The position numbers were made by a program, and so were the translations under genes. A stretch of DNA of 24,081 nucleotides from a virus. The stretch spans positions 1 through 24,081 of the IMG/VR virus record IMGVR_UViG_3300037300_000430, one strand, 5' to 3'. The notes beneath the pieces were generated by a model. The model saw nothing but the letters and a program-made list of their open reading frames with translations, had not been told where the DNA came from and searched no databases. Position 1 is the stretch's first letter. Every line of letters begins with the position of its first letter. Below are positions 8,702-24,081 of this stretch, piece after piece.

Positions 8702-8933
8702 ATCAGAGGGTTTTGGCGCACATAAGCGGCGAACTTACATAGCGTGCGTGCATGTGCGGCTGAAACGACCTTTTGATCGTGCAACACATTGAGGGGTTTA
8801 GGCGTATATTTCAGCTATCTTCTGGACAGACGTGTGAGCAGTGCCAAGCGGCATCGCATCGCGCCTGACTAACACCCCGAACCCGCTCTGAGCTTCCTGC
8901 TCTTGGCGGGTTTTCGCATTTCTGGAACCATTG
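8702..8933. other. Non-coding gap between early and late blocks
   Basis: No convincing reading frame is present on either strand. The region holds a TATATT box at 8805-8810 without a well-spaced -35, GC-rich alternating GTGC/GCGT sequence near 8740-8760, and a terminator hairpin at its right end. It is the natural place for a late promoter dependent on an activator such as the preceding DUF6362-like protein. No promoter can be fixed from sequence alone. Confidence 0.5.
8880..8914 (+). terminator. Intrinsic terminator before the methyltransferase gene
   Basis: AACCCGC (8880-8886) pairs perfectly with GCGGGTT (8906-8912), followed by TTTT at 8911-8914. The loop is 19 bases, longer than ideal. 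The ribosome binding site and start codon of the methyltransferase gene follow within 25 bases, the same header layout seen before three late genes. Confidence 0.65.
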
Positions 8934-10187
8934 ATGCCATCCCTGCAAATCCAATATCGGCCGGTCGAGTTATTGATCCCTTATGCCCGAAATGCTAAGC
9001 AGCACTCGGACGCCCATGTGGCACAGATTGCAGCCAGCATCACCGAGTTTGGTTGGGGAGCGCCGATCTTGGTGGATGGTCAGAACAATGTGATCGCTGG
9101 CCATGGTCGCCTGCTGGCAGCACGCAAGCTCGGCATGACCGATGTACCTGTCGTTCCGATGGAGCATTTGACTGACATCCAACGCAAGGCTTTGATCCTG
9201 GCCGATAACAAAATTGGTGAAAACGCATCCTGGGATGACGCCCTACTGGGTTTGGAGTTGGCCGAGTTGCAGGCCGCAGGGTTTGATCTGGACATCACGG
9301 GCTTTACCCCAGAAGAGTGGGACAAGCTTATTGCAGGCGACATCGGCAACGACGGCTTGACTGATGACGATCAGGTGCCGGAAGTCACCGAAACTGCTAT
9401 TACGCAGACCGGCGACATCTGGCTGATGGGCGAGCACAAGGTGCTGTGCGGCGACGCCACCAAGGCCGAGGACTACAAACGGCTGCTTGGCGATGAACTG
9501 GTCGACATGACCTTCACCGACCCGCCGTACAACGTCCACTATGCCAACACGGCCAAGGACAAGATGCGCGGCACGAACCGCCCGATCTTGAACGACAACA
9601 TGGGGGAGAACTTCAGCGCCTTCCTGCAGGCTGCGTGCGTCAACATTCTGGCCGTCACCAAAGGCGCGGTCTACATCGCGATGAGTTCATCCGAACTTGA
9701 CACCCTGCAGTCAGCGTTTCGCGCCGCCGGTGGCAAGTGGTCGACCTTTGTGATCTGGGCCAAGAACACCTTCACCATGGGACGCGCCGACTACCAGCGC
9801 CAGTACGAGCCCATCCTCTACGGCTGGAAGGACGGCGCTCAGCACTACTGGTGTGGCGCCCGCGACCAAGGTGACGTTTGGCAGATCAAGAAGCCGCACA
9901 AGAACGATTTGCACCCGACCATGAAACCGGTGGAATTGGTTGAGCGGGCTGTGAGGAACAGCAGCAAGACGCGTGACCTGGTGCTCGACCCCTTTGGTGG
10001 ATCCGGCACCACGGTCATTGCCTGCGAGAAGGCGGGTAGACGCGCTCGACTCATCGAACTTGATCCGAAGTACGTGGACGTGATCGTCAAGCGCTGGCAG
10101 GAATTCAGCGGCAAACAGGCCGCCCGTTTCAAAGACGGGGTGGCGTTTGACGCGTTGGCTGAGGATTCTCAGCCGGCGACTGCGTAA
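8934..10187 (+). CDS. ParB-domain DNA methyltransferase (DPPY type)
   Basis: The 417-residue protein fuses two domains. Residues 10-95 are a ParB/sulfiredoxin-like domain with NVIAGHGRLLAARKLG (52-67). Residues 160-390 are an amino-methyltransferase with DPPY at 196-199 and the S-adenosylmethionine-binding LDPFGGSGTT at 351-360. The order (catalytic motif before FxGxG) is the beta class, and DPPY suggests N6-adenine or N4-cytosine methylation. ATG 8934 is favoured over TTG 8931 because of spacing to GGA at 8924. Phage genes of this type usually lie near the terminase and may protect DNA from restriction or mark it for packaging. There is no cognate nuclease nearby apart from the HNH packaging protein. 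Confidence 0.93.
   Translation: MPSLQIQYRPVELLIPYARNAKQHSDAHVAQIAASITEFGWGAPILVDGQNNVIAGHGRLLAARKLGMTDVPVVPMEHLTDIQRKALILADNKIGENASWDDALLGLELAELQAAGFDLDITGFTPEEWDKLIAGDIGNDGLTDDDQVPEVTETAITQTGDIWLMGEHKVLCGDATKAEDYKRLLGDELVDMTFTDPPYNVHYANTAKDKMRGTNRPILNDNMGENFSAFLQAACVNILAVTKGAVYIAMSSSELDTLQSAFRAAGGKWSTFVIWAKNTFTMGRADYQRQYEPILYGWKDGAQHYWCGARDQGDVWQIKKPHKNDLHPTMKPVELVERAVRNSSKTRDLVLDPFGGSGTTVIACEKAGRRARLIELDPKYVDVIVKRWQEFSGKQAARFKDGVAFDALAEDSQPATA
10157..10174. repeat. Perfect hairpin between two convergent genes
   Basis: GGCTGAG (10157-10163) and CTCAGCC (10168-10174) form a seven-base stem with a GATT loop. It lies inside the overlapping 3' ends of the methyltransferase gene and the leftward DUF3489 gene and covers the stop codon of the latter. 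No T run follows on either strand, so it is not a standard intrinsic terminator. Confidence 0.6.
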
Positions 10188-10669
10188 ATTCGTTCACCAC
10201 CTTGCGCCTTGCTCGACGTGATCTCAATACCCAGCTTCTTCTTGAATGCGCCGGCAAAGGTGCCGCGCACCGTGTGCGCTTGCCATCCCGTGGCCTCACA
10301 AATTTGCTGAATCGTTGCGCCCTCGGCGCGCTTGAGCATGGCAATGACCATAGCTTGTTTGCTGCTGTCCCGCCTGCGGGACTTGGGTGTTTCAGTTGGC
10401 TGTACGGCTTCGGCAGCCTCGATGACTTTATCAAGCGCTGCAAGGCTAATCGGAGCGCGGCACGGTAACCCGAGGGCATCGTAGCCCTCGGCGGTAACGA
10501 ACCAAGCGGCACCATCCGTTGTAATGAGTGCCCGGTTAAGCAGGCTGTCAAGAACCTTCTTACGTGCCCCGCCTTTGATGTTGTCGGGAAACCAGACGAT
10601 CTTGCCGTCAGTAAATTCGGTGGCGTGAGCGAGGATGGCGTGTTGTGTTTGGCTGAGTTGCATGGCCAT
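10169..10669 (-). CDS. DUF3489 domain protein
   Basis: A leftward 166-residue protein starts at ATG 10669, chosen because AGGAG lies six bases upstream on the minus strand; the frame continues further 5' without a better site. The C-terminal third (about residues 104-166) is a DUF3489 domain: SKQAMVIAMLKRAEGATIQQ, followed by an HTH-like ICEATGWQAHTVRGTFAGAF and KKKLGIEI. The N-terminal half (LSQTQHAILAHATEF) also looks like a small helical DNA-binding unit. The function of DUF3489 is unknown; a nucleic-acid-binding role is inferred. Its 3' end overlaps the convergent methyltransferase by 19 bases. It is the last gene of the leftward island. Confidence 0.85.
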   Translation of the reverse strand: MAMQLSQTQHAILAHATEFTDGKIVWFPDNIKGGARKKVLDSLLNRALITTDGAAWFVTAEGYDALGLPCRAPISLAALDKVIEAAEAVQPTETPKSRRRDSSKQAMVIAMLKRAEGATIQQICEATGWQAHTVRGTFAGAFKKKLGIEITSSKAQGGERIYAVAG

Positions 10670-10682
10670 GGCGATCTCCTGA

Positions 10683-10874
10683 TTACGGTTGTTGTTGGTT
10701 GGATTGGGGCGACTGCTTTCCGGCTTCAAAGGCGGCGAGCAGGGCAGTCTTGATGCCCCAGAAGCTCACCTCATGAAAGTCGAGTCGGTCGCTGTTACGT
10801 GTCGAGAGCGTTTCGACAAAAAGATGGTCTAGCGCGATTTGCTGGAGAAGTTGATCTCGGTCGGCGTTGTCCAT
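10683..10874 (-). CDS. DUF6900-like small protein
   Basis: A leftward 63-residue protein starts at ATG 10874, overlapping the previous stop as TGATG; a GTG at 10877 is possible. The core LDHLFVETLSTRNSDRLDFH followed by EVSFWGIKTALLAAFEAGK matches my memory of DUF6900 proteins, which occur beside DUF3489 genes in proteobacterial prophages. The tail is Gln/Pro-rich. There is no catalytic motif. Tight coupling to the 69-residue gene and proximity to DUF3489 indicate one operon. Function is unknown. Confidence 0.75.
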   Translation of the reverse strand: MDNADRDQLLQQIALDHLFVETLSTRNSDRLDFHEVSFWGIKTALLAAFEAGKQSPQSNQQQP

Positions 10875-20715: not shown

Positions 20716-22215
20716 ATGCCTGTCTCGTTCAACTACATCCCTGCCAATGTCCGTGTGCCCTTGTTTTATGCGGAAATGGACAATACCCAGGCGGGCTACT
20801 TCACCCAGAATAAACGCAGCCTGCTCATTGGGCAGAAGCTTGCCAGCGGCAGCGCCGTGGTTAACACTGCGTATCTCGTCAGTACCACGGATGCCGCCAA
20901 AACCTTGTTCGGCACCGGCTCCATGCTCGCTCGCATGCACGCTCTGTATCGGCAGCAAGATAGCTTCGGCGAGGTGTGGTGTATCGCGCTCGCGGATGCC
21001 GGCGCGGGCGTGGCAGCGACCGGTACGATCACCGTTACCGGTCCGGCTATCGCCGCCGGGGTCATCAACCTCTACATTGCCGGGCAGCGCGTGCAAGTCT
21101 CGGTTGGCGCGACAGATGCCGCTACCGTCATTGCCGCATCGATCAATGCCGCAATCAACGCTGCGACCGATCTGCCGGGTACCAGCACCGTGAGCACCAA
21201 CGTTGTCACGCTCACCTGCCGCTGGAAAGGCGCCACCGGCAATGACATCATGGTGCTCGACAGTTTTCGTGGTTTTGCCGGTGGAGAAACCCTGCCAACG
21301 GGCATCGCGCTGGCTTACACCGGCTGGGCCAATGGCGCTACCAACCCCACGCTGCCAGGCAACGCCATCACTGCCATGGGCGATGACGAGTACGACTACG
21401 TCATTCACCCCTACACCGACAGCGCCAGCCTCGACGCTTTCGTCATCGAGTACAACGATTCAGTTGGCCGCTGGGCTTGGTCGCGCCAAGTGTATGGCCA
21501 CGTCTATTGCGCCCTGCGCGGCACGCTTTCGGCACTCACCACCGCAGGCGGTTTGCGCAATGACCCACACCACACGATTGCGGGGATCGACGTCGACACC
21601 CCGAATCCCTGCTGGGAATATGCAGCTGCCTACGGCGCTGCCAATGCCCTTGGCCTTAACGTCGATGTGGCACGCCCCACGCAGACGTTGCCGCTGACCG
21701 GCATCCTCGCCCCGCGTGCCGGAAAGCGGTTTCTGCTCACAGAACGGCAGTCGCTGCTCAACTACGGTATTGCCACCAGCTTTGTCTCCGGCGGCCAGTT
21801 GCGCATCGAGCGAGCGATCACGACCTACCAGAAAAACACCTGGGGCCAAGCTGACCCGAGCTATCTTGATAGCGAGACCTTGCACCAGCTTACCGAAATC
21901 ACCCGTCGGCTGCGCAACCGCATCACCCAGAAATACCCGCGCCACAAGCTGGCGAATGACGGCACTCGCTTCGGTGCCGGTCAGGCCATCGTCACACCGA
22001 GCGTCATCCGGGGAGAGTTGCTGGCCGAATACAGCGATATGGAACAGCTTGGCCTGGTTGAAAACGCCACGCTGTTCAACAAATACCTCATCGTCGAACG
22101 TGATGCTGGCAACCCCAACCGTATCAACGTTCTGCTGCCGCCTGATCTGGTGAATCAGTTGCGCATCTTCGCGCTACTCAACCAGTTCCGCCTGCAGTAC
22201 GGCGCATCCGCTTAA
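20716..22215 (+). CDS. Contractile tail sheath protein (Mu gpL-like)
   Basis: A 499-residue protein starts at ATG 20716. Residues 1-90 (NYIPANVRVPLFYAEMDNTQ, LLIGQKLASGSAV, ALYRQQDSFGEVW) form the N-terminal sheath part. Residues 95-200 are the threonine/alanine-rich surface domain seen in Mu gpL. The C-terminal half (DDEYDYVIHPYTDSASLDAF, LTERQSLLNYGIATSF, RRLRNRITQKYPRHKLANDG) contains the conserved sheath core. It forms the contractile outer tube, so this phage is a myovirus. Length is typical of Mu-like sheaths (about 495). Confidence 0.95.
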   Translation: MPVSFNYIPANVRVPLFYAEMDNTQAGYFTQNKRSLLIGQKLASGSAVVNTAYLVSTTDAAKTLFGTGSMLARMHALYRQQDSFGEVWCIALADAGAGVAATGTITVTGPAIAAGVINLYIAGQRVQVSVGATDAATVIAASINAAINAATDLPGTSTVSTNVVTLTCRWKGATGNDIMVLDSFRGFAGGETLPTGIALAYTGWANGATNPTLPGNAITAMGDDEYDYVIHPYTDSASLDAFVIEYNDSVGRWAWSRQVYGHVYCALRGTLSALTTAGGLRNDPHHTIAGIDVDTPNPCWEYAAAYGAANALGLNVDVARPTQTLPLTGILAPRAGKRFLLTERQSLLNYGIATSFVSGGQLRIERAITTYQKNTWGQADPSYLDSETLHQLTEITRRLRNRITQKYPRHKLANDGTRFGAGQAIVTPSVIRGELLAEYSDMEQLGLVENATLFNKYLIVERDAGNPNRINVLLPPDLVNQLRIFALLNQFRLQYGASA

Positions 22216-22271: not shown

Positions 22272-22631
22272 ATGGCAAAACGTGTTGCAGGTATCTGCTA
22301 CATCAAAGTCGACGGCGAGCAGCTCGAAGTCTCAGGTGGTGTTGAAGTCCCGTTGGTCGATCTCAAGCGCGAAACCGTCATGGGCCTCTCGGGGCCTGCC
22401 GGTCTCAAGGAAACCGCGCTTGAGCCTTACGTCAAGCTCTCGGCCATCTTCATGCCAAGTTTCCCCATTGCCATGCTGCAGACCAGCACCGAAATGACGG
22501 TCACGGCGGAGCTGGCCAACGGCAAGAGCTACACCCTGTCTGGCGCCTTCATCAAAGGCGAGCCCGCGATCAAGGGCGACGACGGTACCGTCGAATTGGA
22601 GTTCGGCGGGAAGAAGGGGATTTGGCAATGA
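22272..22631 (+). CDS. Tail tube protein (Mu gpM-like)
   Basis: A 119-residue protein starts at ATG 22272 with AAAGGAAA at 22259-22266. MAKRVAGICYIKVDGEQLEV, VMGLSGPAGLKE and the closing GDDGTVELEFGGKKGIW match the Mu-type tail tube family. It forms the inner tube inside the sheath. It directly follows the sheath gene, as in Mu. Its stop overlaps the start of the chaperone gene (ATGA, 22628-22631). A weak GCGGC/GCCGC stem at 22225-22247 lies in the 56-base gap before it without a T run. Confidence 0.92.
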   Translation: MAKRVAGICYIKVDGEQLEVSGGVEVPLVDLKRETVMGLSGPAGLKETALEPYVKLSAIFMPSFPIAMLQTSTEMTVTAELANGKSYTLSGAFIKGEPAIKGDDGTVELEFGGKKGIWQ

Positions 22632-22927
22632 GCGCCACGATCAAACTCTCCAAGGCGATCAAAGCGCACGGCGAAGAAGTCGATGAAGTCACCATGCGCG
22701 AGCCAGGTACCAAAGATCTCATGGAGTTGGGCCTGCCCATGCTCATCATCACCGGGGCTGACGGGCAGAGTACCGGTATTGAAATTCGCCAGCCGGTGAT
22801 CGCCCGCTACATCAGTCGCCTCGCCGCCATTCCGATGGGTAGCGTCGAAGCCATGACGATCAAAGACTTCTCTCTGTGCAGCGCGGCGGTGATGGGTTTT
22901 TTCGGGTCGGGCGATGGCGAAGCTTAG
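22628..22927 (+). CDS. Tail assembly chaperone (Mu gp41-like), zero-frame product
   Basis: A 99-residue protein starts at ATG 22628, coupled to the tail tube stop. It has IKLSKAIKAHGEEVDEVTMR, PGTKDLMELGLPMLII and IARYISRLAAIPMGSVEAMT, a pattern of the Mu gp41/Phage_TAC family that helps assemble the tape measure into the tail. Near its end the codons GGT TTT TTC contain the slippery heptamer T TTT TTC (22897-22903). Slipping back one base fuses it to the GpE-like frame that ends at 23076, giving a 149-residue protein. The terminating zero-frame TAG lies at 22925-22927. Confidence 0.9.
   Translation: MSATIKLSKAIKAHGEEVDEVTMREPGTKDLMELGLPMLIITGADGQSTGIEIRQPVIARYISRLAAIPMGSVEAMTIKDFSLCSAAVMGFFGSGDGEA
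22897..22903 (+). promoter_or_regulatory. Programmed -1 ribosomal frameshift site T TTT TTC
   Basis: In the chaperone frame the ribosome reads TTT TTC after GGT. After a -1 slip both tRNAs can re-pair with TTT TTT and continue with CGG GTC GGG into the GpE-like frame. The position, order of genes and size of the extension match the frameshifted tail chaperones of lambda, P2 and Mu. Only weak pairing is visible downstream, so efficiency cannot be judged. Confidence 0.8.
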
Positions 22928-23076
22928 AAGATCTGACCGATCGTGTCTTTGAAGTCGCCTACTTCTGGCGGGTGAGCCCCGCTGAAATCATGGCCTTGTC
23001 GCTTGAGCAATATCTCCTCTATGAGCGGCAGGCCGAACGCCTCGCAGAACAAATCAACGCACCCCAAACGGAATAA
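22903..23076 (+). CDS. GpE-like extension made by -1 frameshift
   Basis: This frame has no credible start of its own (only a GTG at 22876 without ribosome binding site inside the chaperone gene). Read after the -1 slip it adds 57 residues: RVGRWRSLEDLTDRVFEVAY, then FWRVSPAEIMALSLEQYLLY and a charged helix ERQAERLAEQINAPQTE. The second part resembles the P2 GpE family (hydrophobic FxW, helical MSLxE segment). The fusion product would link chaperone to tape measure protein, whose gene begins three bases after the stop. Confidence 0.78.
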   Translation, partial: RVGRWRSLEDLTDRVFEVAYFWRVSPAEIMALSLEQYLLYERQAERLAEQINAPQTE

Positions 23077-23079
23077 ATC

Positions 23080-24081
23080 ATGGCGGATAACTGGCAACTC
23101 AAGGCCGTGCTCTCAGCCGTTGACAACATGTCACCCGTGCTCAAAAGCATCGGCACTGTGGCCAAGACAACGCGCAAGTACCTCGCCGATGTGGGCGGTG
23201 CTGCAGGCAATCTCAGCGGCAAGATCGGTATGCCCATGGCCGCCATCTCTGGCATTCTGAGTGGCTTCTCGCTGATGGCCGTCAAGAACGCCGTGGTCGG
23301 TTTCACGGATATGGGCGAAGCGGTGCAAAAAGGCGCGCTCAAAGCTGGCATGTCGGTAGAGCAGTACCAGCGCATGAAGTACGTGGCCGAGCAATCTGGC
23401 ACTTCGATTGAAGCCATGGAAGGCAGTCTCTCCAAGCTCAACCGCTCGTTGGGGGATGCCGCCGTCGGCAAGAATAAAAATATGGCGAGCTTGATGGCGC
23501 ATCTCGGCTTGAGCATGCGCGACAGCAATGGCCAACTGCGAACCGGTGTTGATTTGCTGCCGCAATTGGCCGATGCCTTCAAGCGCAATGAAAACCCGGT
23601 CGTGCAGGCGCGCATGGGCATGGCCATGTTCGGTAAAAGCTACGCTGAAATTCTGCCGCTGCTGGCAGAAGGGTCAGCAGGTATCAACGACAACCTGGCG
23701 CGCTTCGACAAGATCAAAGGTGTTCTTGGCAAAGATGACATCAAGGGCGCAAAAGATCTGGGCGACTCGTTCAAAGACCTGGATATGGTCATGAAAGGGT
23801 TTCAAGTCACCATCGCCAAGCAACTCGTCCCGGTCATCAAACCGATGGTCGACAGTCTGGTGGCATGGTGGGTTATCAACAAAAAACTCGTCAGCACGGA
23901 AGTCAGCGCCATGGCCAAAGACCTCGGCATCTGGATCAAAACCATTGACTTTAAAAAGGTGCTGACGGACGTCGGTGACTTCGTTAAAAGCCTCGGCGGA
24001 TTTATTGACATGATCGGCGGCGCAAAGAACGCGCTCATTGGCCTGGTCATTTTTATGAACATGCAAACCATCATGGCCGTC
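23080..24081 (+). CDS. Tape measure protein, N-terminal part (runs off window)
   Basis: The frame from ATG 23080 is open to the right edge (334 residues, 3' end missing). It begins MADNWQLKAVLSAVDNMSPV, a usual tape measure opening, followed by GNLSGKIGMPMAAISGILSG, KGALKAGMSVEQYQRMKYVA and LLPQLADAFKRNENPVVQAR, with MFGKSYAEILPLL. This is the conserved N-terminal module of Mu/P2-like tape measure proteins. A hydrophobic stretch starts near the edge (GGAKNALIGLVIFMNMQTIM). The protein sets tail length and is injected with DNA. It lies directly after the frameshift product that chaperones it. Confidence 0.92.
   Translation, partial: MADNWQLKAVLSAVDNMSPVLKSIGTVAKTTRKYLADVGGAAGNLSGKIGMPMAAISGILSGFSLMAVKNAVVGFTDMGEAVQKGALKAGMSVEQYQRMKYVAEQSGTSIEAMEGSLSKLNRSLGDAAVGKNKNMASLMAHLGLSMRDSNGQLRTGVDLLPQLADAFKRNENPVVQARMGMAMFGKSYAEILPLLAEGSAGINDNLARFDKIKGVLGKDDIKGAKDLGDSFKDLDMVMKGFQVTIAKQLVPVIKPMVDSLVAWWVINKKLVSTEVSAMAKDLGIWIKTIDFKKVLTDVGDFVKSLGGFIDMIGGAKNALIGLVIFMNMQTIMAV

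Follow-up and report, generated by a model that had tools for sequence, protein, structure and literature searches.

A probable programmed −1 frameshift in the gp41-like tail chaperone gene of a virus with a Mu/SfV-type contractile tail

The production of a tail assembly chaperone in two forms by frameshifting is a known mechanism of tailed phages. In phage lambda, the short chaperone gpG and a rarer frameshift fusion, gpGT, handle the tape measure protein (PMC5009743). Phage P2 produces E+E' from gpE via a −1 slip at T TTT TTG (PMC3091744; see also the Smp131 paper, PMC3931495), and gp41 of phage Mu reportedly relies on a −2 slip (PMC5009743). Here we describe a viral contig in which a programmed −1 ribosomal frameshift very probably makes two forms of a gp41-like chaperone. 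The lambda pair is taken as the model of how this pair might work, the likeness being one of arrangement. The lambda slippery sequence differs from that of the present locus.

The window, that is, the whole stretch of DNA analysed, comprises 24,081 bases of the IMG/VR virus record IMGVR_UViG_3300037300_000430; the features of its tail module and frameshift locus given below are all on the + strand. Pfam and PHROG searches identify an HK97-type head module (terminase, portal, S49 protease and capsid) followed by a Mu/SfV-type contractile tail module in the order of sheath, tube, chaperone and tape measure. The sheath protein (Mu gpL-like, 20716-22215) matches Pfam Phage_sheath_1 and PHROG 165 (E=9.7e-189), and the tube protein (Mu gpM-like, 22272-22631) matches Pfam PF10618 (E=5.3e-32). 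The ATG of the chaperone gene (22628-22927, 99 aa) overlaps the stop codon of the tube gene, and its product matches PF10109 (Phage_TAC_7, E=8.1e-14) above the gathering score as well as PHROG 166, 'tail protein'. The tape measure gene (23080-24081), which is cut by the contig end, matches PHROG 8125 (E=2.2e-34) and several tape measure families. Thus, a short ORF sits between the tail tube and tape measure genes, as in frameshifted chaperone pairs of the lambda G/GT class. Elsewhere in the window, a BRO-N domain protein is encoded close to its start (1430-2179), and an N4/N6 DNA methylase (PF01555) with a weak ParB-like N-terminal match is encoded at 8931-10187; a DUF3489 protein (10169-10729, − strand) lies between this methylase gene and those for packaging.

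By direct reading, the 99-codon frame runs from the ATG at 22628 to the TAG at 22925-22927; a 101-aa version in the ORF list starts at an upstream TTG. Near its end, the codons ATG GGT TTT TTC GGG include the heptamer T TTT TTC (22897-22903) in the phase X XXY YYZ, so that an in-phase slippery heptamer lies where the lambda G/GT class has one. A second in-phase heptamer, G GGT TTT (22894-22900), overlaps the first and would give an identical fusion product; it is missing in many distant relatives. The −1 frame stays open between 22843 and the TAA at 23074-23076, and a −1 slip gives ...MGFF|RVGRWRSLEDL..., a fusion of 92 + 57 = 149 residues, whose end at 23076 lies directly ahead of the tape measure ATG at 23080. 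The initial annotation had proposed this heptamer, the 149-residue fusion beside the 99-residue form and the location just upstream of the tape measure gene, and all of these are borne out by the reading. An Rfam scan of the slip site gave only sub-threshold chance matches. Most ribosomes would read the gp41-like gene through to the TAG at 22925 to make the 99-residue chaperone, and a minority would slip back by one base, with tRNA-Phe on UUU and UUC of U UUU UUC, and continue in the −1 frame to make the fusion with a C-terminal helical domain; that the slip occurs, and that it is the less frequent event, we infer. If the two forms act like gpG and gpGT of lambda, the tape measure protein would be coated by the short one, and the domain added in the fusion would recruit tail tube subunits.

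The arrangement resembles that of P2 in several respects: a short form of the PF10109 family (P2 gpE, E=1.5e-12), a site before the tape measure gene, the −1 direction and a nearly identical heptamer. The P2 heptamer ends in G, whereas that of the window ends in C, and the P2 fusion has 142 residues against 149. Downstream structure has not been reported for P2 (PMC3091744), unlike the structure excess in the window's group described below. The extension had been called GpE-like, which holds for the family of the short form but not in the same sense for the extension itself: PF06528 (Phage_P2_GpE) matches P2 E' at 2.3e-22 but matches none of the 28 extension family members, and profile comparison with P2 E' gives a distant similarity (hhalign probability 85%, 41 columns). 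Mu has a similar order of tube, chaperone and tape measure genes, and the peptide of its +1/−2 frame distantly resembles the extension (hhalign 80%), but no T TTT TTY is seen at the end of its gp41 gene. A −2 shift was rejected for the window, where the +1/−2 frame is a 19-codon stretch that closes at 22952.

Direct homologues with the same gene order are found in the SfV-like phages SfV, SfIV, ST64B, AH07, BgVeeders33, EPP-1 and YeP1, which have Mu-type tails; their proteins show ~28-38% identity to the window's (tblastn), and all of them have T TTT TTC or T TTT TTT plus a −1 extension. A DNA search of the window gene against phage records gave no match. Homologues were gathered from viral contigs, genomes, phages and plasmids, and the viral-contig, genome and phage loci were thinned to <80% DNA identity, leaving 37 loci. 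The initial annotation had named conservation of the heptamer in homologues as a check, and the site is conserved: 35 of these 37 divergent loci keep NNT TTT TTY at the conserved Phe-Phe, where the codon usage of each locus would predict 3.7 (P ~5e-40), and with one count per clade the figure is 14/16 (P ~7e-16). The loci that lack it are relatives of Paraburkholderia phage IPK, described below. The residue ahead of Phe-Phe is variable (Gly, Pro, Ser, Asn, Arg or Asp), and yet its codon always ends in T. The T-ending codon and TTT are kept even in phages of 68-70% GC that almost never use TTT (L043, L047 and L049). Four plasmid and two E. coli records, examined later than the 37 loci, all have the site. 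In phage-like plasmid records from Mesorhizobium (L120) and Arsenophonus (L121), the same chaperone gene has T TTT TTT together with a −1 extension, so that hosts of this arrangement are found among the alpha-, beta- and gammaproteobacteria.

The −1 frame extension (22903-23076), consisting of 57 codons past Phe-Phe and the TAA, belongs to a conserved family. The slip opens an extension of 49-61 residues in every complete homologue, and the 28 extensions that were aligned share an invariant Ala, Trp, Pro, Ala and Arg. In the window's close relatives, the DNA of the extension changes mostly at third positions of the −1 frame (dN/dS ~0.04-0.3), and the extension is therefore under purifying selection in them. 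AlphaFold2 predicts three helices (mean pLDDT 85.8). Pfam scans of the extension gave only weak unrelated matches, an NCBIfam search gave none, PDB searches by sequence and by fold returned nothing meaningful, and no match in a BFVD fold search fell below E 0.18. In that search, a phage D108 protein of 48 aa aligned well with the extension (TM 0.68/0.82) but without significance. A conserved, overlapping second ORF in a shifted frame that lacks a start signal of its own is again found in the lambda G/GT class. The lack of such a signal had been stated for the window and agrees with the present data: the GTG at 22876-22878, where a gene finder might start a separate 66-aa gene, is preceded by no Shine-Dalgarno-like sequence, and neither a start codon nor a Shine-Dalgarno was found conserved among the extension homologues. 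At the position of 22876, homologues have GTG, TTG, ATG or no start, and several have no start codon at all ahead of the extension domain, so that frameshifting is the only visible route for its translation there.

The slip is probably aided by RNA structure. A possible stimulatory stem-loop (22909-22960) begins 5 nt after the heptamer, with pairing of 22909-22915 to 22954-22960 and of 22918-22922 to 22947-22951. Across the group, the 60 nt from 4 nt past the heptamer are more structured than control segments (mean z −1.6 vs −0.3, p 1.4e-7, dinucleotide shuffles). The excess begins sharply at the heptamer and survives synonymous-codon resampling (p 3.8e-6, n=29), and averaging by clade gives p 0.018. 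It suggests a stimulatory stem-loop, a likely conclusion though not a firm one. In L001, the closest relative, the stem-loop of the window is mismatched, its covariation across eight close relatives is no better than in shuffles, and in the SfV group the strongest hairpin lies ~44 nt downstream, at a greater distance than stimulators usually have. A weak Shine-Dalgarno-like stretch upstream of the slip site, GGCGGTGA (22885-22892), has an anti-SD pairing of −6.3 kcal/mol; the corresponding group effect is small (p 3e-4, for an interval picked after inspection of the profile), and as a stimulator this stretch is suggestive only, with weaker evidence than the downstream structure.

Three other explanations have to be weighed. 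The window contains TTTTTTC 5 times, where 2.2 occurrences would be expected, and, given Gly-Phe-Phe, codon usage alone would produce GGT TTT with a chance of ~0.34 x 0.23 = 8%. The heptamer in one genome is therefore weak evidence, and an accidental heptamer followed by a functionless overlapping open frame might be suspected; the conservation in homologues, however, puts the site far beyond chance and, together with the purifying selection on the −1 frame, refutes this explanation, which we regard as scarcely credible. The same fusion could in principle arise without ribosome slippage if RNA polymerase slipped on the T run and gave mixed mRNAs. RNA polymerases can slip on homopolymer runs (reviewed in PMC5009743), and some homologues have a run of seven T. 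The run is, however, only 6-7 long and without exception in phase for a tandem slip (T TTT TTY), whereas polymerase slippage would presumably favour longer runs and be indifferent to phase, although the evidence from phase is partly confounded by the conserved Phe-Phe; transcriptional slippage is thus highly improbable.

Translation of the −1 frame as a separate gene, either from the GTG at 22876 or through re-initiation once the gp41 stop has been reached, is also very unlikely, if slightly less so, and it has a natural precedent. Paraburkholderia phage IPK and its relatives (L009, L025-L028, L030 and L031) have a homologous short form and extension domain, but unlike the window they have GGC TTC TTC in place of a slip site and encode the extension as a separate gene with its own GTG. 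The position of this GTG is fixed, exactly 69 nt ahead of one and the same codon in all of them and in L107 as well, and several have good anti-SD pairing. RefSeq, too, annotates a separate ORF of this kind in 1 of 2 E. coli records inspected. Against such a gene in the window stand the missing Shine-Dalgarno and the unconserved start described above, as well as the homologues with no start before the domain, and it would leave the conserved heptamer unexplained. Homologues without a slip site and with separate starts had been named beforehand as a finding that would speak against frameshifting. They do exist in the IPK-type phages, and the fusion is accordingly not required in every relative; the frame relation is, however, not kept there, the extension domain being in frame −1 in L009 (locus coordinates 1501-2018) and in +1 in L025-L028, L030 and L031. 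Because of this loss and the fixed GTG start, we read the IPK-type arrangement as a local change to separate genes rather than as an argument against a frameshift in the window. In the gp41 tree, IPK-type members are placed among frameshifting relatives in two places, on branches with only partial support, which makes loss of the frameshift the simplest reading for them. The GenBank record of IPK is flagged UNVERIFIED, and the viral-contig members agree with it. An SfV-like prophage (L092, 1501-1909) carries a single additional G ahead of the T run, which gives a permanent in-frame fusion; either natural variation or a sequencing error could account for it.

The programmed −1 frameshift is thus very probably the correct reading. 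The window site is an ordinary example of a known tailed-phage mechanism, well conserved and for the most part left unannotated, and it is a further well-supported instance of a classic recoding event. The IPK-type phages, with the slip site and the frame relation lost and a separate start present, offer a direct route to ask whether tail assembly needs the covalent fusion or the domain alone. We tentatively propose, as a possibility somewhat short of probable, that in the SfV-like phages the stimulatory stem-loop is fixed in position and free in sequence, and that one C-terminal domain is reached by interchangeable routes, namely the −1 slip at T TTT TTY, the −2 slip of Mu, the separate IPK-type gene and perhaps the permanent fusion of L092. 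If so, this chaperone family would serve as a natural experiment on the reasons why phages use a frameshift to attach the domain.

A literature search found no description of SfV-like slip sites, but many phages have reportedly been surveyed by Xu et al. 2004, and no claim of a first description is made for these sites. The SfV version of the region is matched in 909 of 5,426 complete E. coli genomes. The initial annotation had expected that plain gene annotation would miss the fusion or call a false gene, and both outcomes were found: the SfV-like annotated records inspected carry the short form only, with the fusion unannotated in every one, except that one of them adds a separate ORF in the −1 frame. 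This ORF, in E. coli NZ_AP045179.1 (L117, 537-719), overlaps the chaperone gene and is a false gene that RefSeq lists as a 'hypothetical protein'.
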